A program made the translations under genes and the position numbers. The notes under the pieces were generated by a model. That model did no database searches. It saw nothing but the letters and a program-made list of their open reading frames with translations, and was not told the origin of the DNA. Of a stretch of DNA of 64,000 nucleotides, positions 5,563 to 40,663 are shown one piece after another. Numbering within the stretch: position 1 is the first letter of the stretch; each line of letters begins with the position of its first letter. This DNA is from Cyanosarcina radialis HA8281-LM2. Lineage in GTDB: Bacteria; Cyanobacteriota; Cyanobacteriia; Cyanobacteriales; CCAP-1448. Location of the stretch: contig JAHHHA010000018.1 of assembly GCA_019359615.1 (NCBI GenBank), positions 1 to 64,000 of the forward strand, in the 5' to 3' direction.

Positions 5563-7629
5563 ATGCGTGCTTTCCTGTCGAGACATCAGCCCGTTCTCTT
5601 TACCAGTTTAGCGATCGCAGCCCTCATTACGGGAGTGCGGCAGTTAGGAGTTTTACAGGGATTGGAATTAAGCGCGTTCGATGGGTTAGTGCGCTTGCAG
5701 CCCGATCGCGGTGTCGATCCTCGGCTGCTGGTAGTTGCCATCACCGAAGAGGATATCAGAAACCTCAAAAAACCGCCGCCAATTGACGATCGCACTCTAG
5801 ATGAGGTCTTGAATAAGCTAGATCGATACCAACCGCGAGCGATCGGCTTGGATGTTTATCGGGATTTGCCAGTAGAACCAGGCAATGCCGAATTAAGCAC
5901 GAATTTTCAGGTTAATCCTAATTTAGTGGCAATTTGTGGCGGCAGCGGTAACATTGCCCCACCGCCGACAGCACCAGCCAGCAGCTTGGGGTTTAGCGAT
6001 GTCGTGTTGGATAGCGATCTGATAGTCCGCCGCAATTTATTGTTCGTCACCCCAGATCCTGAATCTAAATGTCCGGCTAACTACTCTTTTAGCGCCCAGT
6101 TGGCTTTGCGCTATCTGGAAAAACAGGGAACTAAATGGCAAAAAACGCCTCAAGAAGAATTGCAGATCGGTTCGATCGTCTTCAAACCCATAGATAGCAG
6201 CGTCGGCGGCTACCACCGAGTTGACAACAGAGGCTATCAGATCTTGTTGCAATATCGATCGCCTAGATCCATAGCCAAACAAGTAACTCTCACCGATGTT
6301 TTGCAAGATCGAGTCGATCCCAACTTAGTTAAAGATCGCATCGTTTTGATCGGTGTCACCGCTGCCAGCGGCAACGACTTTTTCTATACCCCTTACACTG
6401 CTAGAGGACAAGAAGACTTGAGGATGCCAGGAATTATCCTTCAGGCTCAAATGGTCAGTCAAATCCTCAGCGTAGTTCTCGACGGGCAACCCTTATTGTG
6501 GAGTTGGCCGGGATGGACGATTGCCATCTGGGTGTGGGGATGGTCTTTATTAGGGGGAATTCTGGCCTGGTATCTTCGCCATCCCCTGGTAATGTTAGCG
6601 AGTACCGCCGCCTGTGCGATCGCTTTGAGCGGAATTTGCTATCTCCTCCTCATTCCAGGCGGATGGATGCCGATCGTACCGCCTTTGTTAGGACTTGTCA
6701 CCACGGCTGTTAGCGTCATTTTCTACAAAACTTACAAATCTGGTAGTCCTCAAATCACCCAACTACCGACCACGCAACCTATCGTGCCGTTGAGCCGGCC
6801 GTTTCTAGCGACGAATACCCTATTAAAAGGACGCTACCGGATCGTAGAAAGGCTCGGCCGGGGCGGATTCGGTGTCACTTATAAAGCTGAAGATATTCAA
6901 CAACCCAGCCATCCCGCGATCGTCGTCAAGCAGTTGAAACCCGTGCGGGACGATGAGGAATTCATGGGAGTAGCCAGACGCTTGTTTAACTCCGAAGCAG
7001 AAACTCTGGAATTGCTGGGCAGACACGAGCAAATTCCCCAGTTAATGGCTTATTTTGAAGAAGATGGAGAATTTTACTTAGTACAAGAATTCATTAAAGG
7101 CCACCCTCTGAGTAAAGAGATTTTAATGAGTCGCCCCTTGTCAGAATCTTATGCAGTAGCTTTGCTGAAAAACATCTTGCCAGTTCTCGACTTCATTCAC
7201 AGCCATCAAATCATTCATCGCGATCTCAAACCAGCCAATATCATCAGGCGAGAAGCAGATGGCAAACTGGTATTAATTGACTTTGGGGCCGTGAAACGGC
7301 TAGAAACCGAAATTGCTACGGGCGAAACCAATCCTACCGTGCCCATGGTGACAGAAGGCTATGCCCCGCCGGAACAGTATTTAGGCCGCCCCGTACTTAA
7401 CAGCGACATTTATGCTTTAGGAATCGTAGCGATTCAAGCGCTGACGGGATTGCCGCTACCTGCGATCGTCAAAGATGAAATCAGAAAACTGGTGGTGTGG
7501 AAAGAACGCACTGAAGTTCGAGTCAGCGATCGTCTGGCTGCCATCTTAGATCGAATGGTGCGGCTTGAGGTCAGCGACAGGTATCAATCTGCTGCCGAAG
7601 TTTTGCAAGCACTTGAGGATTTAGGGTAA
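5563..7629 (+). CDS. CHASE2-domain Ser/Thr protein kinase
   Basis: The 688-residue membrane protein starts at the ATG at 5563; the upstream TTG lies in the repeat arm. A transmembrane start (about 10-30) leads into an extracytoplasmic CHASE2 sensor (about 30-305; LVVAITEEDI, ALGLDVYRDL-like core, DRIVLIGVTA). Three membrane segments (about 315-390) follow, then a Hanks-type kinase (about 420-688). Visible kinase motifs: GRGGFGVTYKAED, VVKQL, HRDLKPANII (near 551), DFGAVK (near 572) and EGYAPPEQ. The key Lys, Asp and Asn are present, so it should be active. It probably senses an outside signal and phosphorylates cytosolic targets. Confidence 0.93.
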   Translation: MRAFLSRHQPVLFTSLAIAALITGVRQLGVLQGLELSAFDGLVRLQPDRGVDPRLLVVAITEEDIRNLKKPPPIDDRTLDEVLNKLDRYQPRAIGLDVYRDLPVEPGNAELSTNFQVNPNLVAICGGSGNIAPPPTAPASSLGFSDVVLDSDLIVRRNLLFVTPDPESKCPANYSFSAQLALRYLEKQGTKWQKTPQEELQIGSIVFKPIDSSVGGYHRVDNRGYQILLQYRSPRSIAKQVTLTDVLQDRVDPNLVKDRIVLIGVTAASGNDFFYTPYTARGQEDLRMPGIILQAQMVSQILSVVLDGQPLLWSWPGWTIAIWVWGWSLLGGILAWYLRHPLVMLASTAACAIALSGICYLLLIPGGWMPIVPPLLGLVTTAVSVIFYKTYKSGSPQITQLPTTQPIVPLSRPFLATNTLLKGRYRIVERLGRGGFGVTYKAEDIQQPSHPAIVVKQLKPVRDDEEFMGVARRLFNSEAETLELLGRHEQIPQLMAYFEEDGEFYLVQEFIKGHPLSKEILMSRPLSESYAVALLKNILPVLDFIHSHQIIHRDLKPANIIRREADGKLVLIDFGAVKRLETEIATGETNPTVPMVTEGYAPPEQYLGRPVLNSDIYALGIVAIQALTGLPLPAIVKDEIRKLVVWKERTEVRVSDRLAAILDRMVRLEVSDRYQSAAEVLQALEDLG

Positions 7630-7637
7630 ATCTCACA

Positions 7638-8093
7638 TCACTTACTTTTTTCCCACCATCCATCCGCTAGCAAAACCCCACCTCGATCGCTAACTCGATC
7701 TAAATTCATCAGATAAACCCAAGCCAATCCCAGCGATCGCCCATCGGGAGAAAATGTAGGAATCAGTTGTCGATCGTATTCGTTTTCGTGGCAGGGTCGC
7801 TCCCTTTGGTAATCTTCTAAGCGATCGAGATCGTCCAAGATAGCTATGTCAGCAAACGATAACAAAAAACCATGCACCGGACAATTTCCTGAAGTCATGG
7901 CTGGATATCCCGCTGGCAGAGAGAAGAGTCGCCCAAAAGCGATCGCTCTTCGTTCTGCTAACACTTTGCCAGCACAGTAAATTTGATAATTGGCCTCTCC
8001 TGGTTTGAGAGTGCCGTAAACAAAAACGATCGCGCGGCCTGCGTTGCTAGATTTGAAGCTTTCTAGAATTTCCATTAGCAAACGCAGCAGCAT
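7638..8093 (-). CDS. Gamma-glutamylcyclotransferase-like (AIG2/GGCT fold) protein
   Basis: The 151-residue product has the family signature VYGTLKPGEANY near its start, a YPAM segment and an acidic LDDLDRLEDY segment carrying the conserved catalytic-type Glu, then a terminal WVYL. Members cyclise gamma-glutamyl compounds or act on related amides; the substrate here is unknown. The start may be the ATG at 8093 or 8075. It converges on the kinase gene with 8 bp between them. Confidence 0.8.
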   Translation of the reverse strand: MLLRLLMEILESFKSSNAGRAIVFVYGTLKPGEANYQIYCAGKVLAERRAIAFGRLFSLPAGYPAMTSGNCPVHGFLLSFADIAILDDLDRLEDYQRERPCHENEYDRQLIPTFSPDGRSLGLAWVYLMNLDRVSDRGGVLLADGWWEKSK

Positions 8094-8248
8094 AAAATCT
8101 CATACCAAAGGCAGATCTCAATTAATCTCCTGTCAGTGTAGATTGGCAACGTCAAAGCAATCCGCAAACGTTCATATTGGTGGGGGGCTTGAAACCCATC
8201 GATCCGATTAGCATTTAAGCCCACATTATATGAGATGACTGTTCTTGC

Positions 8249-9298
8249 ATGAGCCTTCCCTCAATTTCCCTAGTTATTCCAGTTCATAACGGTGGCGAAC
8301 ACTTTCGTAAATGTCTGTCGAGCGTACAACAATTTGTGCCTTCAGATACAGAAATCATTATAGTTGTAGACGGTGGAACGGATGATTCTTTACAGGTCGC
8401 TCAGACATTTGCTCGCTCTTCTGGCGCTAAAGTATTGCACTCTTCAACGGCATCAGGACCGGCTCGCGCTCGCAATTTAGGCGCGCGGTCAGCTTGCGGC
8501 GACATTCTTTTTTTTATCGATGCTGACGTTACTCTTCATCCAGATACTTGCGCTCAAATTGCGACAATTTTTCAGCATCAGCCAGATCTAGCAGCACTCA
8601 TAGGTTCTTACGACGACGCGCCCGGATCTCCTAATTTTTTGTCTCAATACAAGAACTTGTTTCATCATTACACCCATCAAACTGCGAGCGAAACCGCATC
8701 GACGTTTTGGGGTGCGTGTGGTGCTATTCGGCGAGACATATTCCTCAAGATAGACGGCTTTGATGAAAGCTATAGATATCCTTCAGTAGAAGATATCGAA
8801 CTCGGTTATCGGCTCAAGCAAGGAGGGTATCGGATTCAGTTATGTAAAACAGTGCAGGTAAAGCACTTAAAACACTGGCGACTTATCTCACTTTTGAAGG
8901 CTGAAATCTTTTATCGAGCTATTCCTTGGACGGAGCTACTTTGGCGCGATCGCCAATTCATTAACGATCTAAATTTAAAAGTATCGACTCGCACCAGCAT
9001 CTTATTAACCGATCTGCTATTAATAGCAGTAATAGCATCTTGGTGGACGACAAAGGTAATTATCGTTGCTGGAGTTATCGGTTTAATTCTGCTAGTAATT
9101 AACCGTTCGGTCTATCAATTTTTCTGGCAACAACGCGGTTTGTGGTTTGCTTGCCGTACCGTACCTTGGCATTGGCTGTATTTTTTCTACAGCGGACTAG
9201 CCTTTGGGATCGGCACGCTCCGCTATCAGTTAATTGGTAAACCAAGAGTCGTTAAATCGAATTCGCAATTGCCAATTCACAATTCGCAATTACTCTGA
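8249..9298 (+). CDS. GT2 family glycosyltransferase
   Basis: The 349-residue product has the GT-A fold: ISLVIPVHNGG at the start, VVDGGTDDS, PARARNLGARSACGDILFF followed by the metal-binding IDADV, and later FDESYRYPSVEDIELGYRL (acceptor/catalytic region). Two hydrophobic segments lie near the C-terminus (about 250-280 and 300-320). It should transfer a sugar from a nucleotide donor in the cytoplasm at the membrane. It opens the polysaccharide locus. The last residues (SNSQLPIHNSQLL) are encoded by a short AATTCGCAATT repeat and are probably not functional. Confidence 0.9.
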   Translation: MSLPSISLVIPVHNGGEHFRKCLSSVQQFVPSDTEIIIVVDGGTDDSLQVAQTFARSSGAKVLHSSTASGPARARNLGARSACGDILFFIDADVTLHPDTCAQIATIFQHQPDLAALIGSYDDAPGSPNFLSQYKNLFHHYTHQTASETASTFWGACGAIRRDIFLKIDGFDESYRYPSVEDIELGYRLKQGGYRIQLCKTVQVKHLKHWRLISLLKAEIFYRAIPWTELLWRDRQFINDLNLKVSTRTSILLTDLLLIAVIASWWTTKVIIVAGVIGLILLVINRSVYQFFWQQRGLWFACRTVPWHWLYFFYSGLAFGIGTLRYQLIGKPRVVKSNSQLPIHNSQLL

Positions 9299-25228: not shown

Positions 25229-26908
25229 GTGGTATTTTCTCCGTCAACGTATGTAAACTTTGTATCTGAGGCGACCGCTTCGCAGGAACGCCTATTTCTG
25301 CAATATATAAGTCCGCGCAACGATTTCGACGTAATCATCATTGGATCGGGTATCGGCGGGGGCGTGCTGGCTGACGATCTAGCCGAGCGGATAGGAAAAA
25401 ACCAGCGAATACTCCTGCTAGAAGCTGGATCGTTCGTCTACCCTACTCATGTCTACAATGTATGTCGCTTTCCCAACGCCAGCATCGCCAAGCATTTTGG
25501 CTGCGATACCTTCTGGCAATCTGGCAATCCTGGAACGCAAAACTATATTGGCGAGAAGCCACAACTAAATTTCGGCGGTCGATCGATTTTCTGGTCTGGT
25601 CTAATTCCTGCAATTCAGGGATGGGAACTGGATTTTTTCCCTGACACGGTTAAGCAAGACTTAGAAGCTGGTCTGCTGAATCTGGCTGGAGAGGCGATGA
25701 ATGAATCGAGAAGCATGGGATCGGTCGCCCAGGCAATCGTTGCCAAGCTTCGGCAATCGCCGCTGGCCAGCGATTTCTCAATTCAAGAGACACCTCGCGC
25801 TTTACACCAACCTTACTTAGAGTCGGACAGCAAACCAAAAGATCGATTTTTTACTGAGCCAACTGGTGTTTTCAATACGGCTGAGTTACTAATTAACCAG
25901 TTAGGACTCACTCCTGGAATCAGCCAGGGAGACGGGCCTGGTCTGCACATACTTCTGAATCACTATGTCGAAGATGTGAAAAAACAGGGGGCATCTTTTA
26001 CTATTGTGGGTCGCAATACGTTAACTGGGGCGGCGCGAGAGTTTCAAGCGGGGACCGTCATTCTGGCTGCTGGCTCGATCGAAAGCCCCAAACTCATTCA
26101 ACGTTCGAGCGTGTACGGTCTATTACCTGCGGCTACACAACAATTAGTCGGGCTGGGGCTTACAGATCATCCGACATCCAACGAAATAACCACCTACGCC
26201 ACAGGCATCGGCAATGTAGCGATCGGGAGCGACGATCATGCCAAGATTATTTTTTATTCTCGTGGACTCAGAGACTCGAACGATGAGATTAGATATCCAT
26301 TCAACGTGGAAATGAATATCAATCATGAATACTGGCATTTGCGAGAGAACGATCCTACTGAAAGCCAATCGAGCAACCCTACAAACGGGGCAGCCCGAAT
26401 CGATATTAAGTTCAGTTTTGCAAACTGCCTAGATGACGAGAATCAGGTGAAACCATCCCCACCATCAAGCTTCGTTCCTGAAATTGCCTTTAGAAATTTG
26501 AGTTGGGCAGACTACCTAGCCCAATCTCGTTTTCCTGCCTTGGCAGGTTGGCAGAAGAGCGCTAGTGAAATATTTGCGATTCTCAACAGCGTGACTTACG
26601 AGATCTTCAAACAATTCGACAACAACGGGAACCCTGCACGACCTGTCGATGAAGTATGGTACGGGCAAGGCGGCAAGGGTTTTGGGTGGGGAACCGTTCA
26701 TCATTCGGCTGGTTCCTTACGAATGCCGTACAGGACTCGACTCGATGCCCCATTTTCAACCAGTTCCGTTGTAGACGAAAACCTGAGTGTTTCTGGAGTG
26801 CCAGGTTTATATATTTGTGATATGTCTGTTATGCCCTTTAGCTCCGCAGCCAATCCGGTACGCACGCTGGTCGCTCTTGCTCTCAGGTTATCTCGTCACC
26901 TCAGTTGA
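25229..26908 (+). CDS. GMC-type FAD oxidoreductase
   Basis: 559 residues from the GTG at 25229. N-terminal FAD-binding motif VIIIGSGIGGGVLADDLAE, a middle variable region, and the GMC C-terminal signature HHSAGSLRMPY ... SVSGVPGLYICDMSVMPFSS then NPVRTLVALALRL. The His in the HHSAGS block and Asn of SAANP are at the usual active-site positions. GMC enzymes oxidise alcohols (glucose, choline, cholesterol and others). The substrate is unknown; proximity to the terpenoid-type operon makes a sterol or terpene alcohol possible (inference). Confidence 0.85.
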   Translation: MVFSPSTYVNFVSEATASQERLFLQYISPRNDFDVIIIGSGIGGGVLADDLAERIGKNQRILLLEAGSFVYPTHVYNVCRFPNASIAKHFGCDTFWQSGNPGTQNYIGEKPQLNFGGRSIFWSGLIPAIQGWELDFFPDTVKQDLEAGLLNLAGEAMNESRSMGSVAQAIVAKLRQSPLASDFSIQETPRALHQPYLESDSKPKDRFFTEPTGVFNTAELLINQLGLTPGISQGDGPGLHILLNHYVEDVKKQGASFTIVGRNTLTGAAREFQAGTVILAAGSIESPKLIQRSSVYGLLPAATQQLVGLGLTDHPTSNEITTYATGIGNVAIGSDDHAKIIFYSRGLRDSNDEIRYPFNVEMNINHEYWHLRENDPTESQSSNPTNGAARIDIKFSFANCLDDENQVKPSPPSSFVPEIAFRNLSWADYLAQSRFPALAGWQKSASEIFAILNSVTYEIFKQFDNNGNPARPVDEVWYGQGGKGFGWGTVHHSAGSLRMPYRTRLDAPFSTSSVVDENLSVSGVPGLYICDMSVMPFSSAANPVRTLVALALRLSRHLS

Positions 26909-27788: not shown

Positions 27789-28691
27789 GTGAGCGATCTT
27801 GGCAAAAATAATTTGCCGTTGGTCTTCCCCCACCCACCGATTCTAGCTAGCGATCGCGCTAACTGGAAAAACATTCAGTTCGCTCATTTCCGGCAACCGC
27901 CTCGCGAGATTCCGGAGTACGTGTCGCCACACCATACTATTTGCATCAATGTCGGTCAGCCCGTTCTACTCGAACAAGTTGTAGGCGGACAACGCGAGAC
28001 GGTTAATTCCATGGCAGGAGGTTTAGCTATTTATCCAGCCTATTTAAGCCAACAGTTCTGCTGGAATAAAGAAGCTGAATTTTTCAATCTGTTTTTAGCA
28101 CCTTCATTCCTCGTTCGAGTTGGTTATGAGGTGTTTGGAAGCGATCGCCTCGAACTCATTCCGCATCTGGCTACACTGTTCGATCCATTAGTTCAACAGA
28201 TGGGCTTTGCCCTCAAAACATCCTTAGAAATCGACGGGCAAAATAGCAACCTTTATGCTGATGCGATCGCTCAGGCACTCGTCGTTCATCTTTTATCTAG
28301 ATACTCAAACAATTCGCGTCAAATAAAAAAGATCGGAGGTGGTTTTACCCAACTGCAATGGCAAGAAATTGTTGATTTTATTAATGCAAACTTGAGCGAA
28401 CATATTAGCTTGAATGAATTAGCAGCGATCGCGCGATTGAGTCCCTATCATTTTGCCCATATATTTAAGAAATCGACTAATACTTCACCTCATAAATATT
28501 TAATTAGTTGTCGGATCGAACGGGCTAAAGAATTGATAGTTACGAGCGACTTATCGCTGGCAGCAATTGCTCAGATGGTTGGTTTTGCTAGCCAAGGACA
28601 TTTCACCTACCATTTCAAACGCCTCGTGGGAGTTACTCCCAAGGTTTTTTGGCAGCAATCTCGGCTAGCTCTTTCAGAGCCGCCCTGCTAA
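27789..28691 (+). CDS. AraC family transcriptional regulator
   Basis: 300 residues from a GTG at 27789. N-terminal cupin-type effector domain; C-terminal AraC DNA-binding domain with two helix-turn-helix motifs: SLNELAAIARLSPYHFAHIF and LSLAAIAQMVGFASQGHFTY, ending FKRLVGVTPKVFW. Probably senses a small molecule and controls neighbouring accessory genes such as the SnoaL-like or GMC genes; the targets are inference. Confidence 0.92.
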   Translation: MSDLGKNNLPLVFPHPPILASDRANWKNIQFAHFRQPPREIPEYVSPHHTICINVGQPVLLEQVVGGQRETVNSMAGGLAIYPAYLSQQFCWNKEAEFFNLFLAPSFLVRVGYEVFGSDRLELIPHLATLFDPLVQQMGFALKTSLEIDGQNSNLYADAIAQALVVHLLSRYSNNSRQIKKIGGGFTQLQWQEIVDFINANLSEHISLNELAAIARLSPYHFAHIFKKSTNTSPHKYLISCRIERAKELIVTSDLSLAAIAQMVGFASQGHFTYHFKRLVGVTPKVFWQQSRLALSEPPC

Positions 28692-28854
28692 GGCAACTGC
28701 CTTGAGTTCCAAGGAGAAAGGCTGCGGGTGAGGCTATAGGCGATCGCAAGAACGTTGAAAACAATCGCAAAAACCTGGAAGAGAAGTATTGAATAATCTC
28801 CCATACTGAATGTGTCAATTAATTTCAGAGTTCGCTTCTGATGTGGGAGAATTT

Positions 28855-29268
28855 ATGTCACAGCAAAATATAGAAAATACTCGCCATCTGTTCAAAGCAG
28901 TCGAAGACCGCGACATCGATGGAGTTCTGGCGGCTTACGATCCCGAAATTGTCATCCGCGATGCCGAGTCGCTGCCCTATGGTGGCATCTATCGCGGTTT
29001 TGAGGGTGCGAAACAACATATCAATGGTGCTGCCCAAACTTGGAACCCCCTTCAACCAGCAACCGAGAGGAAAATGGATGCAGTCTTCTTGGATGCAGGA
29101 GATTATGTCATCGTCCTTTGGCGGTTGAGAGGACTGGCAATGAGGAGCAAAAGAAAACTCGATTTGCCAGTCGCGAGCGTCTATAAAATGCGCGGCGGCA
29201 AAATTGCCGAATCGCAGATGTTCTATGCAGATACAGTGGAGATACGGCAATTTTTAGAGGACAAATAG
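28855..29268 (+). CDS. SnoaL-like (NTF2 fold) protein
   Basis: 137 residues from the ATG at 28855 with GGGAGAATTT upstream. Opens NIENTRHLFKAVEDRDIDGV and has PYGGIYRGFEGAKQHI and LPVASVYKMRGGKI then SQMFYADT, the SnoaL-like ketosteroid-isomerase-type pattern. SnoaL proteins include polyketide cyclases and steroid isomerases as well as stress proteins. It follows the AraC gene in the same direction and may be its target. Confidence 0.85.
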   Translation: MSQQNIENTRHLFKAVEDRDIDGVLAAYDPEIVIRDAESLPYGGIYRGFEGAKQHINGAAQTWNPLQPATERKMDAVFLDAGDYVIVLWRLRGLAMRSKRKLDLPVASVYKMRGGKIAESQMFYADTVEIRQFLEDK

Positions 29269-29309: not shown

Positions 29310-30623
29310 TTATCCTTTAGTCCAAAGCGATTTAGGCACCAGACAGTGGACGTTCTTGGCTCCAGCTTCGAGTTGTCCGAGGCGGGCATCGAGGGCGAGA
29401 CTCGATAGCGAGTAAGCATCGAGGGCCGATAGCTGCTTCATTTCTTGCAGGCGATCGATCGCTTGCATGGCGGCTTTATTCAACGCCTGCATCGCATCCC
29501 CGTCTACAGCATGGGTAACAAAACTGTCGGTGGTGTCGGTCTTTGGGTTGGCGACAATGGGTGTTGTCAGATTCTTCGGCAACATACAGTATACGCCCCG
29601 CAACTGATTCACCACTTCTGCTACCCGACAGTCGCCGTAAGTCGCCATAAATTTACGGGCCTCTGCGCCTCGCAGCCCCCGCCACTCGGACAGAAACTTC
29701 ATGGTTTCTTCGTCGAGGATATCTAGAGCTTTGTTGAGATCGCGATCGTATCCTAGCGTTATCCAGTGGGTAGGCGACTCAATGCGAGGCCAGGTGAGCG
29801 ATCGCCCTTTGATAACGGTTACGGTAAGATTGAGTTCGCTGAAAGCTGTTTCGATCGCCGTTAGATTAATTTCGCCATTACCCTGTACCGCGTGGGAATC
29901 TCCCGACCACAGCAACGCTCCATCGACAAACACGGGTAAGTAGATAGTCGTGCCCTGTACCAATTCCCGACAATCGAGATTGCCGCCAAAGGGGCCTGGC
30001 GGAACGGTGCTGTATTGCCCGCTTTCAGCCCGTGCCACCCCAATAATTCCCGGAAACGGGCGAACTGGGAGTTCGATACCGGGCAGAAACTGGGTTTTTC
30101 GCCTTCCCATATCCAAGTAGAAATGCTTCACCTGAGCCTCGGCAAACTCTTTAGGAAATAGCCCTAATCCCAGATTTCCAGGCAAATTCCAATTGGCTCC
30201 ATAAGGGCGAGGCACGATGCGGTTAATTCGCACCCGCAACACATCTCCCGGCGCAGCCCCCTCGACAAAAATCGGTCCCGTGACCGAGTGGGGACCTCGA
30301 CCGGGATTATCGACCCGAAGTTTGGTAATTTTATCGATCGGTACTCCAGGCAAAACCTGATTTAGTGATGCCATCATCGTTTCCATCACGACTGTATCGC
30401 CCGACTTGATGCGAGCGCGTGGAGGTTCTGAGTTGTTAAACCAGCCCCACTGAACGGTTTCGTTGGTTGCTGGTAGCAGGTAGACCCCGCCCTCATATTG
30501 CCCGACATAGCCCTCTTGGAGCGCCTGCATTTCCGGGCGATTCGTTTCCTGAGCCTGCACTTGAGAACTAACCGCTGCTGCTACCGCAGCACTACCCAAA
30601 AGGAAATCGCGTCTTTTTGGCAT
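29310..30623 (-). CDS. Acetamidase/formamidase family protein, Tat-exported
   Basis: 437 residues. The N-terminus KRRDFLLGSAAVAAAV is a twin-arginine-like signal. The body has GPHSVTGPIFVEGAAPGDVL, PFPGIIGVA, PGPFGGNLDCRELVQGTT and GDSHAVQGNGEI, which are signature blocks of FmdA/AmdA amidohydrolases (formamide or acetamide to ammonia and acid). Export to the periplasm is unusual for the cytosolic enzymes but seen in annotated cyanobacterial forms. Substrate not known. Confidence 0.88.
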   Translation of the reverse strand: MPKRRDFLLGSAAVAAAVSSQVQAQETNRPEMQALQEGYVGQYEGGVYLLPATNETVQWGWFNNSEPPRARIKSGDTVVMETMMASLNQVLPGVPIDKITKLRVDNPGRGPHSVTGPIFVEGAAPGDVLRVRINRIVPRPYGANWNLPGNLGLGLFPKEFAEAQVKHFYLDMGRRKTQFLPGIELPVRPFPGIIGVARAESGQYSTVPPGPFGGNLDCRELVQGTTIYLPVFVDGALLWSGDSHAVQGNGEINLTAIETAFSELNLTVTVIKGRSLTWPRIESPTHWITLGYDRDLNKALDILDEETMKFLSEWRGLRGAEARKFMATYGDCRVAEVVNQLRGVYCMLPKNLTTPIVANPKTDTTDSFVTHAVDGDAMQALNKAAMQAIDRLQEMKQLSALDAYSLSSLALDARLGQLEAGAKNVHCLVPKSLWTKG

Positions 30624-30854: not shown

Positions 30855-31544
30855 ATGGTAATGCAGCTAGAAAAAGTGGTTCCCTTTGGGCGATCGCTTG
30901 GTGAATATCTCAAAATGTTCGATTTGGCAGAACTGAATCCTGCCACGCGGATTTTAGGTGTAGGTGACGGACCTGCTAGCTTCAATTCAGAGGCTACTAA
31001 AATCGGTGCTAATGTCACTTCTGTAGACCCCATATATCAATTTAGCGGGGCAGAAATTCAAAAAAGATTCGATAAAGTAGTTGACGATATCATCGGTCAA
31101 GTTATAGCCACTCCCGATGACTGGGTATGGTCGTATCATAAATCGCCAGAAGATCTCCGAAATAACAGATATCGAGCCATCAAAGAATTTGTCAGCGACT
31201 ACGATCGCGGTAGATTAGAAGGAAGATATCAACTGGGGGAATTGCCAAAACTGAATTTTGAAGACAATCGATTCGATCTGGCTCTATGTTCTCATTTTCT
31301 CTTTTTGTACTCCGACCATTACGACTATCAGTTTCACTTTGATGCGATTAGAGAAATGCTGAGAGTCAGTCGAGAGGTCCGAATTTTCCCCTTATTAACT
31401 TTAATGTTGAAACGTTCTCCCCATCTCGATCGGATCCTGGAAGAATTTAGCGACTTGGGATACAAGGTATCGATCGATCGGGTGAAATACCAACTGCAAA
31501 AAGGTGGTAACGAGATGCTGAAGATGGAAACGGTAACACTGTAA
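30855..31544 (+). CDS. SAM-dependent methyltransferase, class I
   Basis: 229 residues from the ATG at 30855, preceded by AGGAAAATAAGGCG. ATRILGVGDGPASFNSEATK is a motif I region (GxGxG-like), then TSVDPIYQF (acidic residue after strand 2) and DLALCSHFLFLYSDHYDYQF (motif IV-like), with REMLRVSREVRIFPL after it. Related proteins occur near natural-product loci. It precedes the prenyl-synthase operon by 430 bp on the same strand. The acceptor is unknown. Confidence 0.8.
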   Translation: MVMQLEKVVPFGRSLGEYLKMFDLAELNPATRILGVGDGPASFNSEATKIGANVTSVDPIYQFSGAEIQKRFDKVVDDIIGQVIATPDDWVWSYHKSPEDLRNNRYRAIKEFVSDYDRGRLEGRYQLGELPKLNFEDNRFDLALCSHFLFLYSDHYDYQFHFDAIREMLRVSREVRIFPLLTLMLKRSPHLDRILEEFSDLGYKVSIDRVKYQLQKGGNEMLKMETVTL

Positions 31545-31975
31545 TACAAAATGATTTTCTGAAAGAGAGAGAGCCTTAATGTAAAGACGCGATACATCGC
31601 GTCTCCCAGCCCAGTCATGTCTCCAGCGATTAAGGAAAATTGGTATCATTGCCAATCGATCCTTTACCAGGTTTAAAGCAAGACGAAAGTTATAAGCATA
31701 TTTAACCTAACCATCAACGAAAGTTGCAGTCCGATGAGGAATTTCGTCGCTCGCGACCAAGACTTTCTTCAGATGATTTCTTATTAGAGCTACATCTACG
31801 ATCGAAGTATCGATATCGCTCTAAAGCTAATTAGATCGAATCGTTAGCAGGCTCAATACCAGGATGGCGATCGCCCCCGGATCGGCGATCGAGTTGTCAT
31901 GGGTTGGCGGAACTATCTGGATTAATTCTGTAGTTAAGAGCGTCGGCACTATTAATATTTATTTTCTCAAATTTT
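31545..31975. other. Intergenic region before the terpenoid-type operon
   Basis: 430 bp. It includes AAGACGCGATACATCGCGTCT (about 31583-31603), a perfect short stem of a common cyanobacterial hairpin. The rest shows no ORF. The last 50 bp, A/T-rich with TATTTATTTTCTCAAATTTT, precede the operon start and may hold its promoter. Confidence 0.4.
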
Positions 31976-34243
31976 ATGGAAAACCAGTTACCAAAGAATT
32001 CATGCTTAGGGATTAAGTCTTTTCCAGACGATTGGCCTGGCGATGGAGCGATCGATCTCAAAATCCACGATCTCCCCCATCGTTCTTCCACGATCGAATG
32101 GTGGTATGTCAACAGCCATTTGGTGACTGTTGACGGCAGAGAATTTTCTGTATTCGCAGCCTTTTTTCGCTCTTTGGAAGAAGCTGGAGAGCCAAAATTA
32201 GAACCAGTTTACTGCCATTCGTTGACGTGGGCGCTAATCGATGCTTCCGAGCAGAAATACTATCGGGAATCTCTGCTCGATCGTCGAGGGCCTGGGATTG
32301 CTCTAAACAAGATGCAAAAGGATTTTAACACTACCGATCCATTTCTCAAAAAAGCTCTGAGAGAAGTTTTTGAACAGGGAAAGGTAACTCTTCCAGATTT
32401 ACTGCTGAAAAAGAATGCTGAGGTGAGCGCGGAGGAATTAAAGCTGGACTATGACGGCAATCGATTTGTGAAGCTAACTGAAGGATGCTACCAGCTAAAA
32501 CTGGCAGACAGAGATGGAATAGTCGGTTGCGAACTCTTATTTACTTTAAAAAAACCTCCCGCTCGCCACGGCAATAACGGCGTGGTGCGAGGCACTACGG
32601 GAGAAGAAATGTTTTATTACTTTGTCCCTTCGTGTCGAGTAGAAGGAACCCTAACAGTGGCAGGAAAAACTCTTGAAGTTAAAACAGCTAAGGGTTGGTA
32701 CGATCGCGAATTTGGTAGACCGGAAGAGCGGCAAAATAGCGATCGTACTAAATCGAATGTTGCTTGGAATTGGATTGCCGTCCAACTCGATAATGGCTGC
32801 GAAATTAATGCCTACGATCTGATCGATATCGATAAAGACACAAGTTGCGGACATTATGCTATTGTCATCGATCCAAAAGGAGATTGGCAATGCCATAGGG
32901 AGTTTACTTTCAAGCCCCTAGAAAACTGGACCAGTAGCCGTACTTTTGAGAACTACCCGATTCGATGGCTGTTACAAATTCCCGCTCTCGATCTTAGCCT
33001 TACCGTAGAGGCCGCATTTCCCGCGCAGGAGTTTGTCACCCTTATTTCTCACCCAGGTTTTTGGGAAGGGCGGGTAACGATCGCAGGTGAGATGAAGGGA
33101 AAAACAGTTCGAGGAATTGGCTTTATCGAACGCAGTGGCTTTAGTAAGTTGGCAAGATTAGAAGACTTTCTCAAAGCTGTCGGACAGCAAACCAGAACAT
33201 CGATCCAAAATCTTTTACCGCTTGCACCCACTACCGCTCAATTGAAAAAACTCATAGGTAGCGAATCTCAACCCCACCGCCTGCAAGGACTCGACTCCCA
33301 GCAGTATTCTCAAGCCTTACTCGAACCGATTCGTACCATCGTCGATCGAGGTGGCAAAGCTTGGCGCTCCTACGCTCCCTTAGCCTGTATCGATCTTGTA
33401 GGGGGTGATTCTTCCTTGTTCTTAGATTGGCTGGGAGTTCCCGAATTATTGCACGTCGGTTCTTTAATTGTTGACGACGTGCAGGATCGCTCTCTAGTGA
33501 GGCGAGGCGGTCCTACTTGCCATCATCTCTATGGCGAACCTTTGGCGATTAATGCTGGAAATGCCTGTTATTTTCTAGGAGAGATCTTACTAAGAAATAG
33601 TAATATTTCTGCCGCAGATAAGCTGCGAATTTACCAGCTATATTTTGATACTTTGCGAGCCGCTCATGCCGGACAAGCTTTAGATCTTAGCGGTTTTAGT
33701 TATCTGATGCCTGAAGTAGTCGATTGCGGTACTGGAGAACTGTTAGAAGCACGAATTTTGTCCATGTACTGCCTTAAATCTGGAGTTCCTGCCAGCGCCT
33801 CGGCCAAAATGGGGGCGATTCTCGGTGGGGGAAGTCAAGAGCAAATCGATCGACTTGGTGGCTTTTTTGAAGCTTTGGGTATTGCTTTTCAGATTGTTGA
33901 TGATGTTTTGAATTTACGCGGCTTTGAAAACAATTTAAAGTCCAAGGGAGAAGATATTACGGCAGGTAAAATCACCCTTCCTGTGGCTAAGGCGATGTCA
34001 GCTTTACCTTTAAAAAAACGGCAGCAGCTTTGGAAAAGTCTTGGTGCTAATCTTAGCGATCCGAAAGATATATCTGCTGTCATCGACTCTCTCGAAGCCT
34101 GCGGAGCAATCACAGCCTGCGTGCAACAAGCTAACGGGTTGGTCGAGTCAGCTTGGCAAGAACTCGATCGACTAGTTCCTGATTCTGATGTCAAGATGCG
34201 ATTGCGATCGTTTAGTTGGTACGTTCTCCAGAGGCATTATTAA
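31976..34243 (+). CDS. CrtC-like lipocalin domain fused to polyprenyl diphosphate synthase
   Basis: 755 residues. The N-terminal half (about 15-390) is of the CrtC/AttH lipocalin-like type: EWWYVNSHL at 41, FFRSLEE, KGWYDREFGRPEE, GFWEGRVTIAGEM, GIGFIERSGF. In other proteins this fold hydrates, cyclises or binds polyprenes. The C-terminal half (about 425-755) is a trans-prenyltransferase: LLHVGSLIVDDVQDRSLVRR with DDVQD at 500-504, and a second motif FQIVDDVLN at 639-646 that ends in Asn, then KGEDITAGKITLPV. Motif spacing is most like type III (eukaryotic/fungal) GGPP synthases. It probably makes and modifies a C15-C20 or longer chain in one polypeptide. Confidence 0.82.
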   Translation: MENQLPKNSCLGIKSFPDDWPGDGAIDLKIHDLPHRSSTIEWWYVNSHLVTVDGREFSVFAAFFRSLEEAGEPKLEPVYCHSLTWALIDASEQKYYRESLLDRRGPGIALNKMQKDFNTTDPFLKKALREVFEQGKVTLPDLLLKKNAEVSAEELKLDYDGNRFVKLTEGCYQLKLADRDGIVGCELLFTLKKPPARHGNNGVVRGTTGEEMFYYFVPSCRVEGTLTVAGKTLEVKTAKGWYDREFGRPEERQNSDRTKSNVAWNWIAVQLDNGCEINAYDLIDIDKDTSCGHYAIVIDPKGDWQCHREFTFKPLENWTSSRTFENYPIRWLLQIPALDLSLTVEAAFPAQEFVTLISHPGFWEGRVTIAGEMKGKTVRGIGFIERSGFSKLARLEDFLKAVGQQTRTSIQNLLPLAPTTAQLKKLIGSESQPHRLQGLDSQQYSQALLEPIRTIVDRGGKAWRSYAPLACIDLVGGDSSLFLDWLGVPELLHVGSLIVDDVQDRSLVRRGGPTCHHLYGEPLAINAGNACYFLGEILLRNSNISAADKLRIYQLYFDTLRAAHAGQALDLSGFSYLMPEVVDCGTGELLEARILSMYCLKSGVPASASAKMGAILGGGSQEQIDRLGGFFEALGIAFQIVDDVLNLRGFENNLKSKGEDITAGKITLPVAKAMSALPLKKRQQLWKSLGANLSDPKDISAVIDSLEACGAITACVQQANGLVESAWQELDRLVPDSDVKMRLRSFSWYVLQRHY

Positions 34244-34244
34244 T

Positions 34245-35144
34245 ATGACTAATATGCAATCTGTGGATTTACCAAATGGATTGACGATTTCGGCTTTAAA
34301 TAAAACGGAAGCTGGGATTCTTTACCATGAAATTTTTATTCAAAAGTCATACCTAAAGTATGGTATTCAAGTCTGCGATGGCGACTGTATCTTCGATGTT
34401 GGTGCCAATATTGGGATGTATACAATTTTTCTCGGTCAATTATTCAGCCATCTAAAAATCTTCGCCTTTGAACCAATTCCCGATATTTTTTCGGCTCTAA
34501 AAGACAATGCCAGTAATTATTCCCAGACCTCAGAGATCGAACTTTTCAATTTAGGATTATCAGAGCAGAATCGGGTAGCTCGATTTGAGTTTAATCCAAA
34601 ACTCAGCTTGGCAGCAAGTATGTACGATCGGGAGCTAGCAGAGTCTGTCAGTCAGGATGCAACCATAGATGACTGGGTGAAAGCGATCGCGGTCGATTTA
34701 GCAAAAGTCGCTCTGATTTCTCCTGGATTAGCACGATTTTTCCTAAAAATTCTGTCAATACCGTTGCTCGGATCTCTCTGTCTGACAATTCTCAATCGAT
34801 TGGTTTTAGGGAAGATAGATAAAGCCCGATCGATTCAGATCGATTGTCAACTGAAAACGGTTTCAGAAATTATTAGAGAGAACGATATTGCCGCGATCGA
34901 TCTGATGAAAATCGATACTGAAGGCAGCGAGTTAGACGTGCTGATGGGAATCGAAGCGGAGGATTGGAAGAAGATTAAACAGTTTGTAGTCGAAGTGCAT
35001 AATATCGACGATCGCTTGTCAAAGATCGTATCCCTGTTCGAGAGCCACAGATACAGCACGATTGTCGATCGAGAAGACTGGGAAGTCCACAAACTGATGA
35101 ATATTTTTACCATTTATGCAGTTGCTAGAGAGCAAGTTTTATGA
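34245..35144 (+). CDS. FkbM family methyltransferase
   Basis: 299 residues from the ATG at 34245, 1 nt after the fusion gene's stop. CIFDVGANIGMYTIFLGQLF is motif I; KIFAFEPIPDIFSALKDN follows; IDLMKIDTEGSELDVLMG is the FkbM C-terminal signature; QFVVEVHN closes it. FkbM enzymes methylate hydroxyls on sugars, polyketides or lipids. It ends in an ATGA overlap with the glycosyltransferase, so the three genes form one operon. Confidence 0.9.
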   Translation: MTNMQSVDLPNGLTISALNKTEAGILYHEIFIQKSYLKYGIQVCDGDCIFDVGANIGMYTIFLGQLFSHLKIFAFEPIPDIFSALKDNASNYSQTSEIELFNLGLSEQNRVARFEFNPKLSLAASMYDRELAESVSQDATIDDWVKAIAVDLAKVALISPGLARFFLKILSIPLLGSLCLTILNRLVLGKIDKARSIQIDCQLKTVSEIIRENDIAAIDLMKIDTEGSELDVLMGIEAEDWKKIKQFVVEVHNIDDRLSKIVSLFESHRYSTIVDREDWEVHKLMNIFTIYAVAREQVL

Positions 35145-36466
35145 CCTCTAAATATTCAGGTAACTATGCCTTATTTGTCTCCATTCCCTTTGTGGGACAC
35201 ATCAACCCTCTACTGCGGCAAGCAGAGGAACTCGTCCGACGTGGATGGCGGGTGGGCATTGCCTCTACACGAGAAATCCAAAACTATGTAGAAGCAGATC
35301 CCTGCGTTCGACAGGGGGCGCGTTTTGTCGATTTGGGATCGGCAGCCCGGTTTCAGGATAAGTTGTTGGAGATCGAGCAAGAGATCTCCAAAGGGAAAAA
35401 CTTCCGGCAGGGTAGCTTCCAGATCGTCGAGTCTTTATGGTTGATTTGGCCGCTCTTCTTTGATGAATTGTTGAAAGTTGTCCGCCAAGAACGCCCCGAT
35501 ATTCTGATTGTCGATTTTGTCACCAGAGGTGCGATCGATCTGGCTGAAGCTGAAGGGATCGCAGTTATTATCAACAATCCCGATCTACTTACTACTATTT
35601 CTATTGAATATCTGCCCCCCGCGTTTGATGTGCCTCTGCCCTATATGGGGCATTCTGTTCGCGCTCTGCCCTGGCATCGCCAATGGTCTTATCCGGTGCT
35701 GCGATGGCTCAGCGGCCGGATCGTCGATCTAACCATCGGACGCAGGCTCAACCAGCTTCGGGCAAGTCGGGGATTGGGGAAACTGAGTATTAATTGCGCC
35801 TGGGCCAAACATACTGTCATGGTTAACAGTGCTTTTGGTCTGGAGTATCCCCGGCCGCTGCCAGGGAATGTAATCATGGTTGGTCCCATGCTGTCTTCAG
35901 TCGTCGAGCCGTTATCCCCTGAAATCGAGGATTGGTTGGGTAACGGCCCGCCAGTAGTCTATGTTAACCTGGGCACGATCGCGCTGCCGATGCTAGATTT
36001 AGTCGATCGGATGTACGAGGCATTTGCTGGCGCACCGTTTCGAGTCTGGTGGATTCTGCGACCTCAAATGCAGCAGCTACTACCTGCACCGCTGGCTGCA
36101 AACATTCGCATTGATGCCTGGGGACCACCTTTGCTGGCGATCCTCAAACATCCACAGGTTCGGGTTTTTGTTTCTCATTGCGGTATCAACAGCACTCAGG
36201 AATCGCTGGCAGCCGGAACGCCAATTGTGGGCATCCCGATGCTGGCAGACCAGTTTGATATGGCAATGCGGGTCGAGGATGCTAGGGTAGGTTTAATCCT
36301 CAACAAGCTGACATTCTCTGCCTCCGAACTGCGGGCAGCGATCGAGCGGGTGCTGTCAGATTCGTCTTTCCTCCAGCCAATTCCAGCTATTCAAGAGTCA
36401 TTTCGTCAAGCTGGGGGCGTGGCTCGCGCTGCCGATACGATCGAGTTGGATTTATTAGCCTACTGA
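35141..36466 (+). CDS. GT1 (UGT/MGT-type) glycosyltransferase
   Basis: 441 residues. The N-terminus (SIPFVGHINPLLRQAEELVR) binds the acceptor; the C-terminal donor motif is FVSHCGINSTQESLAAGTPI then PMLADQFD, the macrolide/terpenoid UGT signature. UGTs of this kind glycosylate small lipophilic acceptors, fitting a carotenoid, sterol or other terpenoid made upstream. The start overlaps FkbM by 4 nt. Confidence 0.92.
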   Translation: MTSKYSGNYALFVSIPFVGHINPLLRQAEELVRRGWRVGIASTREIQNYVEADPCVRQGARFVDLGSAARFQDKLLEIEQEISKGKNFRQGSFQIVESLWLIWPLFFDELLKVVRQERPDILIVDFVTRGAIDLAEAEGIAVIINNPDLLTTISIEYLPPAFDVPLPYMGHSVRALPWHRQWSYPVLRWLSGRIVDLTIGRRLNQLRASRGLGKLSINCAWAKHTVMVNSAFGLEYPRPLPGNVIMVGPMLSSVVEPLSPEIEDWLGNGPPVVYVNLGTIALPMLDLVDRMYEAFAGAPFRVWWILRPQMQQLLPAPLAANIRIDAWGPPLLAILKHPQVRVFVSHCGINSTQESLAAGTPIVGIPMLADQFDMAMRVEDARVGLILNKLTFSASELRAAIERVLSDSSFLQPIPAIQESFRQAGGVARAADTIELDLLAY

Positions 36467-39377: not shown

Positions 39378-39628
39378 TACTTGCCCTCAATATCTAGTTT
39401 CGAGAATTAAAGCATAAGTTATAATTAGACTACAATTGCAATCTAATAATCTAGCAAGCAATAATACCGCAGTTACAGGCTCGTATTTTTATCGGTGCAA
39501 TTTACGGCGACTGCGTTTGGGATGTCAATCGATTCGATCTTGAGTTAGGAACTCCCCTTATCTCTGCCATCTCCACTCATACCCATATACAATTTAAATT
39601 GCACCAGAGCTTATCAGGAGTTTTCGCC

Positions 39629-40663
39629 ATGAGTTCTCACTTCGATCGCCAATGGCATTTTCCTCGCTATTCGCGGCGGATATTCTTGATGGCAGGTGGG
39701 TTCTTGGCGGTAGAATTCCTCGGCCGAAAAACTGGCTGGTGGGGAGAACAAGAGGTAGCGATCGCTAAAGACAATCCTCTCCAAAACTCTCAGGTAAGAA
39801 TTTATCTGAAAGGCAACTATCGCTATATTGTTGCCAACGGTTTGCCCAACCATCAAACAGGCACTTTTCCCAATCCAGGCAATCCAAATAGCATCAAAGC
39901 GCAAAGCTATCAATTGCGAGTACCTGCCAACCCCCAAATCGCTGCTAAGATTAGGCGGTTCCAGTTCGGGCGCTTTGGAGTAGCTGTTAATGGAGTCCTG
40001 TTCGATCCGGGGGCCGCGGAGTTTTGGAGGGGCGATCGCAACTGGCAATACGAGGCACTCTCTGGCAAACTCAATCTGGGAATTGATGCCAATAATGCCC
40101 ACGTTCAGCCTACTGGTGCTTATCACTATCACGGCTTACCTACGGGATTGATCGCCAAATTGGGCAGCAGCAAGAAAATGCTGCTAATTGGCTATGCAGG
40201 TGATGGGTTTCCAGTTTATGCTCCTTACGGCTACTCAGAACCCCGCAATTCTCGCAGTCCGATTCGCCAAATCCGCTCTAGCTATCGATTAAAGCAGGGA
40301 AAACGCGATAGCGGTCCCGGCGGGCAGTACGACGGTACCTTCGTGCAAGATTACGAATACGTCGCAGGTGCAGGAGATTTAGATGAATGTAACGGGCGTT
40401 TTGGTGTCACGCCAGAGTATCCCAAAGGCATTTACCACTACTACATCACCCCAGAATTCCCGTTTATTTCCCGTGCCTTTCGAGGGACACCGGATGAAAC
40501 TTTTGTGCCCAAAGAGGGTAGTCGAGTCCCTATGCCCGGACAAAACTCGCCCAGTCGTCCCACTCAACCGGGTTCCGGGCAACCGCCACCAGGTTTTCCG
40601 CCAGGACAATACCCGCCGCCCCGCAGACCTCCAGGCGATCGATTGCCTTCTTTTCCCCGCTGA
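39629..40663 (+). CDS. YHYH-domain exported protein
   Basis: 344 residues from the ATG at 39629 with TCAGGAGTTTTCGCC. The N-terminus RYSRRIFLMAGGFLAVE is a twin-arginine-like signal. The body has GAYHYHGLPTGL (YHYH motif), LIGYAGDGFPVYAPYGYSEP, GPGGQYDGTFVQDYEYVAG and DLDECNGRFGVTPEYPKGIY. The C-terminus is Pro/Gly-rich (about 45 residues). YHYH proteins are exported and of unknown biochemical function; the His residues suggest metal binding. Confidence 0.88.
   Translation: MSSHFDRQWHFPRYSRRIFLMAGGFLAVEFLGRKTGWWGEQEVAIAKDNPLQNSQVRIYLKGNYRYIVANGLPNHQTGTFPNPGNPNSIKAQSYQLRVPANPQIAAKIRRFQFGRFGVAVNGVLFDPGAAEFWRGDRNWQYEALSGKLNLGIDANNAHVQPTGAYHYHGLPTGLIAKLGSSKKMLLIGYAGDGFPVYAPYGYSEPRNSRSPIRQIRSSYRLKQGKRDSGPGGQYDGTFVQDYEYVAGAGDLDECNGRFGVTPEYPKGIYHYYITPEFPFISRAFRGTPDETFVPKEGSRVPMPGQNSPSRPTQPGSGQPPPGFPPGQYPPPRRPPGDRLPSFPR

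Follow-up and report, generated by a model that had tools for sequence, protein, structure and literature searches.

Three adjacent genes of the cyanobacterium Cyanosarcina radialis HA8281-LM2, located in the 64,000-nucleotide stretch analysed here (the window; positions 1 to 64,000 of contig JAHHHA010000018.1), appear to form an operon that, on balance, we consider to be dedicated to a decorated isoprenoid, through chain synthesis, modification of the chain end, O-methylation and glycosylation. The first gene encodes a fusion of a CrtC/AttH lipocalin-fold domain with a prenyl diphosphate synthase (IDS) domain, the second an FkbM-family methyltransferase and the third a GT1 enzyme (Table 1). 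From four observations, namely the gene arrangement, the identity of the domains, the conservation of catalytic residues and the repeated co-occurrence of the fusion with glycosyltransferase and FkbM genes, we infer the steps of the pathway. Terpenoid operons are already known as a kind; what is novel here is the uncharacterised bifunctional enzyme family at the centre. The compact operon is also a testable route to its product, consisting of one predicted scaffold gene and two predicted decoration genes.

Table 1 Features in and around the candidate isoprenoid operon (positions are those of the window).
Feature	Position	Strand	Evidence
GMC oxidoreductase	25229-26908
AraC	27789-28691
SnoaL-like	28810-29268
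TAT-signal acetamidase/formamidase-like	29310-30623	-	Pfam
Class I-type methyltransferase, upstream, membership doubtful	start 30747 or 30855, end 31544	+	ORFs, PF08241
CrtC/AttH-lipocalin + prenyl diphosphate synthase (IDS) fusion, 755 aa	31976-34243	+	ORFs, Pfam, model
CrtC N-terminal + Lipocalin_9 domains of the fusion, aa 40-388	32093-33139	+	Pfam, alignment, structure comparison
Polyprenyl synthase domain of the fusion, aa 446-704	33311-34087	+	Pfam, alignment, structure comparison
FkbM-family methyltransferase	34245-35144	+	1 nt after fusion; Pfam/NCBIfam
GT1 (UDP-glycosyltransferase-like)	35141-36466	+	ATGA overlap with FkbM; Pfam/NCBIfam
YHYH-domain protein	39599-40663	+	Pfam

Layout of the operon

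The original prediction proposed an operon for a methylated, glycosylated isoprenoid, in which a prenyl-synthase fusion, an FkbM gene and a GT1 gene follow one another with a 1-nt gap and an ATGA overlap. Open reading frames, sequence and Pfam/NCBIfam assignments agree with this arrangement: the junction between the fusion and FkbM genes reads TAA, a single T, ATG, and the FkbM and GT1 genes overlap in ATGA. The reading of the three genes as one operon is supported by this spacing and overlap; the tight spacing, together with the independent reappearance of the fusion alongside glycosyltransferase and FkbM genes (see below), also supports a product of the predicted kind. The fusion itself was predicted without naming the partner of the prenyl synthase; the IDS domain is confirmed, and the partner is the N-terminal CrtC/AttH lipocalin-fold domain. 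A promoter and terminator scan of the operon locus stayed at the level of shuffled sequence. The G+C content of the genes is unequal (46% in the fusion, 41% in FkbM and 53% in GT1), so the operon may have been assembled recently.

The wider cluster of the original prediction is not supported. The methyltransferase just upstream is a real gene with a weak PF08241 match (22.3 bits vs a cut-off of 21.2), but it is separated from the fusion by a 431-nt gap and has no counterpart in the related clusters. The GMC oxidoreductase, AraC and SnoaL-like genes lie where they were expected, and the acetamidase/formamidase gene sits between them and the operon. However, the upstream methyltransferase, GMC, SnoaL-like and formamidase genes have no match at any of 84 related loci (E 1e-5), and all four were rejected as cluster members. 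We read the cluster as probably comprising three genes and drop the wider reading for the upstream methyltransferase, the GMC oxidoreductase and the SnoaL-like protein. No link to the operon was found for the acetamidase/formamidase or for the downstream YHYH protein.

The prenyl synthase half of the fusion

The fusion protein has three Pfam domains: PF07143 CrtC (aa 40-247; E 2.1e-18), PF17186 Lipocalin_9 (aa 259-388; E 3.1e-23) and PF00348 polyprenyl_synt (aa 446-704; E 3.6e-46). In the full-length model (mean pLDDT 89.2, pTM 0.88) the IDS part superposes on GGPP synthase 1wy0 (Z 36.7, rmsd 2.3, 325 residues). Besides the fold, the IDS part has the two Asp-rich motifs (DDVQD, 33473-33487, and DDVLN, 33899-33913) and the GKxxR-type IPP site of the trans-prenyl diphosphate synthases (PF00348). 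Across 62 aligned homologues, a set which includes one diverged Nitrosomonas protein lacking a Pfam-detectable CrtC domain, the first motif is DDxxD in every sequence and the DD of the second is kept in 61, usually followed by VLN; R464, R509, R510 and K601 are invariant and K461 is found in 58. In chain-elongating synthases these residues bind the metal, the allylic substrate and IPP; prenyl chain elongation is therefore the expected activity of the domain. Gly495, five residues before DDxxD, takes the position that is Met in the CrtE-type synthase and Ala in the long-chain synthase of the same genome, which suggests a product chain of C20 or longer. A chimeric prenyltransferase-terpene synthase (PTTS) was considered and rejected, Pfam giving CrtC, Lipocalin_9 and polyprenyl_synt only and no class I terpene synthase domain, and aa 1-395 folding as a beta-barrel in the model of the N-terminal domain.

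Two other prenyl synthases are encoded elsewhere in the genome (contigs C38 and C25; the window is on C58), so the fusion is an extra copy and unlikely to be the housekeeping prenyl synthase. As predicted, neither a phytoene or squalene synthase nor a squalene-hopene cyclase is encoded in the window; phytoene/squalene-type synthases are encoded on C64 and C8, the latter contig also carrying a squalene-hopene cyclase gene. This gene shares a 14-kb stretch of C8 (9923-23695) with a P450 gene and a squalene-synthase-like gene.

The CrtC/AttH-like domain and the proposed pathway

Modelled alone (pLDDT 89.1), the N-terminal domain matches AttH (2ich; Z 35.7, rmsd 3.0, 307 residues) and kievitone hydratase (7a0q; Z 32.5, rmsd 3.0, 300 residues), followed by the fungal [4+2] pericyclases CghA, Fsa2 and Phm7 (Z 24-25) and a 25-phosphosteroid lyase (Z 22.7), later matches falling below 9. 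It has both the fold and the WYDR...W-x-W site of kievitone-hydratase-like proteins, the letters of this site aligning with those of kievitone hydratase itself. The known chemistries of the fold are terminal prenyl hydration, pericyclisation and, judging by the entry name, elimination at the end of a steroid side chain; they speak for an action of the domain on the distal end of the chain, although fold similarity by itself is no proof.

Active site residues were mapped by aligning the fusion family with Roseobacter litoralis CrtC, a weak profile match (E 0.028) in which the motif region lines up, with reference to the mutant-defined residues of Rubrivivax CrtC (PMC4717167, PMC12402844). Asp268 of the Rubrivivax enzyme corresponds to D243 (codon 32702-32704), which is Asp in 55 and Glu in 4 of the 62 aligned homologues, departures from Asp (Glu or loss) being confined to a few divergent members; Trp283 and Trp285 correspond to W264 (57/62) and W266 (60/62). 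His239, Trp241 and Tyr266 are replaced by E211, F213 and W241, respectively. The counterparts of the CrtC proton donor and of the cation-stabilising Trp pair are retained, and the other CrtC site residues replaced. In Rubrivivax CrtC, His239, Trp241, Tyr266 and Asp268 are all essential (PMC4717167); with only Asp268 of these four kept, the identification of the domain as a true carotenoid 1,2-hydratase CrtC was rejected despite the PF07143 match, and the replacements imply that it may not be a hydratase.

We propose that the IDS domain would join IPP to an allylic diphosphate and so build a linear prenyl diphosphate, which would probably be C20 or longer. The far, dimethyl end of this chain would be taken into the cavity of the CrtC/AttH-like barrel, where Asp243 would protonate it and Trp264 and Trp266 would stabilise the resulting cation. 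Quenching by water, the outcome that we somewhat favour, would give a tertiary alcohol, and quenching by an internal double bond would give a ring; O-methylation by FkbM and glycosylation of a hydroxyl by GT1 would follow. Hydration fits both characterised prenyl-acting relatives, kievitone hydratase and CrtC, the latter of which hydrates the chain ends of C12-C20 terpenes (PMC12402844). Should the chain end indeed be the substrate of the hydratase-fold domain, one protein would combine two known activities, which would point to isoprenoids not yet sought.

Ring closure is the less probable outcome, though we retain it as a tentative alternative: the CrtC-like domain would be a protonation-initiated terpene cyclase, and the fusion alone would make a cyclic terpenoid from IPP and DMAPP, with oxidation, methylation and glycosylation to follow. 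It would fit the lack of a cyclase gene in all of the clusters, of which the related ones yet have P450s and a KshA-type (steroid-hydroxylase-like) Rieske oxygenase; moreover, the CrtC Asp has been likened by the CrtC authors to the squalene-hopene cyclase Asp (PMC4717167), and the pericyclases sharing the fold are ring-forming. Both prenyl-acting relatives of known function are, however, hydratases, oxygenases also use linear chains, and no cyclic product is known. We regard it as a rather unlikely generalisation that the CrtC/AttH-IDS fusions would constitute an unrecognised class of self-contained terpenoid synthases in bacteria and archaea, the Asp-bearing barrel protonating and cyclising the chain made by its own IDS domain; if true, this would open up a class of terpenoids that has tailoring clusters of its own.

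A lipocalin domain that is not catalytic, and binds the unmodified prenyl diphosphate or prenol delivered by the IDS domain in order to pass it to the tailoring enzymes, we hold to be improbable. Lipid binding is common among lipocalin folds and the fusion retains only half of the catalytic residues of CrtC, but Asp243 and Trp241, Trp264 and Trp266 are kept across phyla, beyond what a passive binder would need.

Distribution and phylogeny of the fusion

The fusion is rare in cyanobacteria. In overlapping samples of 386, 389 and 388 cyanobacterial genomes (phylum, order and class, respectively) it was found only in this genome and in two others, G386 (same family, 87% identity to the window fusion) and G722 (same class, 47%); the other AttH-like proteins of the sampled cyanobacteria lie in open frames of at most 621 aa, too short for a fusion. 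Searching plasmids by tblastn gave homologues in Tolypothrix PCC 7601 and 7712 (37%) and in Streptomyces canus (30%), and a scan of 84,980 species genomes gave at least 80 loci, the best two among the matches listed being from Spirosoma (57-58%). At least 65 proteins have both the CrtC and the IDS domain. The two-domain enzyme, catalytic residues intact, occurs across Bacteroidota, Myxococcota, actinomycetes, Thermoplasmata archaea, cyanobacteria and others, many of the hosts, as identified by record title, being metagenome bins, and neither a function nor a description of it was found in open-access full text.

In the tree the window fusion pairs with that of G386 (SH-aLRT 100) and is nested in a Bacteroidota set (97); it is sister to Spirosoma with a support of only 68, and the G722 fusion is on another branch. 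Transfer of the fusion between phyla, in either direction, is likely. Two sequences in these searches deserve separate mention. The fusion of CAMDBH010000001.1, a bin labelled Klebsiella pneumoniae, groups with Myxococcota, and the bin is probably mislabelled. The diverged homologue on a Nitrosomonas stercoris plasmid (AP019756.1, 9368-11317), in whose N-terminal half Pfam detects no CrtC domain, adjoins genes for an FMO-like oxygenase, an LCM-type methyltransferase and a GMC oxidoreductase.

Related clusters and the tailoring enzymes

Neighbourhood comparison, proposed with the original prediction, showed that the relative order of fusion, FkbM and glycosyltransferase recurs in Spirosoma, a member of another phylum, so the order is conserved elsewhere. 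The Spirosoma cluster consists of the fusion, a lipase-maturation-factor-like protein, FkbM, an MGDG-synthase-like glycosyltransferase and two P450s, on one strand and with short gaps. Likewise on one strand, G722 has the fusion (7018-9273), the KshA-type Rieske oxygenase, a P450, a GT1 and FkbM. G386 has the fusion, a GT1, a sulfotransferase and a P450, on a contig that begins 351 nt before the fusion, and this locus has no FkbM; its fusion is the sister of that of the window. On a plasmid of Tolypothrix PCC 7601 (NZ_CP064882.1, 9655-14184) a sulfotransferase, a glycosyltransferase, CrtC and IDS make up one protein of 1509 aa, encoded next to DevC-type exporter genes; being a single polypeptide of a cultured strain, it lends itself to a check. 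Over these four loci and the window, a glycosyltransferase is present in 5/5, FkbM and P450 in 3/5 each and a sulfotransferase in 2/5; that is, the fusion recurs with both glycosyltransferase and FkbM in Spirosoma and G722, and with a glycosyltransferase in G386 and Tolypothrix. Most of the Flavobacterium, Myxococcota and archaeal fusions have no common partner and no glycosyltransferase or FkbM neighbours, and the wider family has no constant neighbours beyond lineage-specific blocks; the fusion therefore does not depend on these tailoring enzymes to act. Elsewhere in the present genome, the best matches to the Spirosoma and G386 P450s are 24-35% identical over part of the protein and not orthologous, and the only match to the G386 sulfotransferase is 30 aa long and contains stops.

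The methyltransferase of the operon matches TIGR01444 (E 6.9e-25) and PF05050 (E 2.5e-15) and shares 50% identity with the FkbM of the Spirosoma cluster and 36% with that of G722. The GT1 protein matches PF00201 (E 4.8e-29) and, below the cut-off of that model, TIGR01426 (E 2.7e-41); it resembles macrolide glycosyltransferases and is 64% identical to the GT1 of G386. With 10 FkbM genes in a genome of 6.5 Mb, and about 6000 genes assumed, the chance that one lies four genes or fewer from the fusion is about 1%; FkbM is that close in three separate clusters (window, Spirosoma and G722), more often than expected by chance. Among the FkbM paralogues of the genome, the closest is embedded as a domain in an NRPS (40% over part), which fits a role of FkbM in natural-product methylation. 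NRPS genes are found on the minus strand of contig C50 (120000-136000), one of them with embedded luciferase-like monooxygenase and FkbM domains, adjoining FkbH-like, acyl-CoA dehydrogenase and hydroxyacyl-CoA dehydrogenase genes, which together resemble a methoxymalonyl-type set.

It is very unlikely that FkbM and GT1 have nothing to do with the fusion, for instance as surface-polysaccharide genes that came to lie downstream by chance: cyanobacteria have many FkbM and glycosyltransferase genes (as the FkbM count above illustrates), the wider family mostly lacks them and the G+C content is unequal, but the 1-nt gap and ATGA overlap, one FkbM subfamily (35-50% identity) beside three separate fusions, the glycosyltransferase fused to CrtC-IDS in Tolypothrix and the NRPS-embedded nearest paralogue all argue for a functional link.

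Comparison with known systems

The IDS domain has the fold and all the catalytic motifs of the trans-prenyl diphosphate synthases (GGPP to solanesyl type); unlike these, it is fused to an N-terminal barrel domain, and the second motif is DDVLN in most fusion members vs DDxxD in those synthases. The N-terminal domain belongs to the same Pfam domain as CrtC of Rubrivivax and Roseobacter and has Asp268, Trp283 and Trp285 in common with it, whereas His239, Trp241 and Tyr266 are replaced, CrtC is unfused and phytoene desaturation genes are absent from the locus of the fusion. With kievitone hydratase of Nectria haematococca (7a0q/7a0t), which hydrates a prenyl terminus, it shares the fold and the WYDR/W-x-W letters; the latter is, however, a fungal single-domain enzyme of 18% identity, acting on a prenylated isoflavonoid, with no prenyl synthase attached. 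CghA, Fsa2, Phm7 and the 25-phosphosteroid lyase share the fold (Z 22-25), but have 11-12% identity and polyketide or steroid substrates. At the level of the cluster, the gromomycin clusters similarly combine a prenyl synthase and a non-standard cyclase with Rieske/P450 tailoring and are missed by pattern-based tools; they differ in having separate genes, guanidine prenylation and, as far as the consulted description goes, no CrtC-IDS fusion (PMC13010261).
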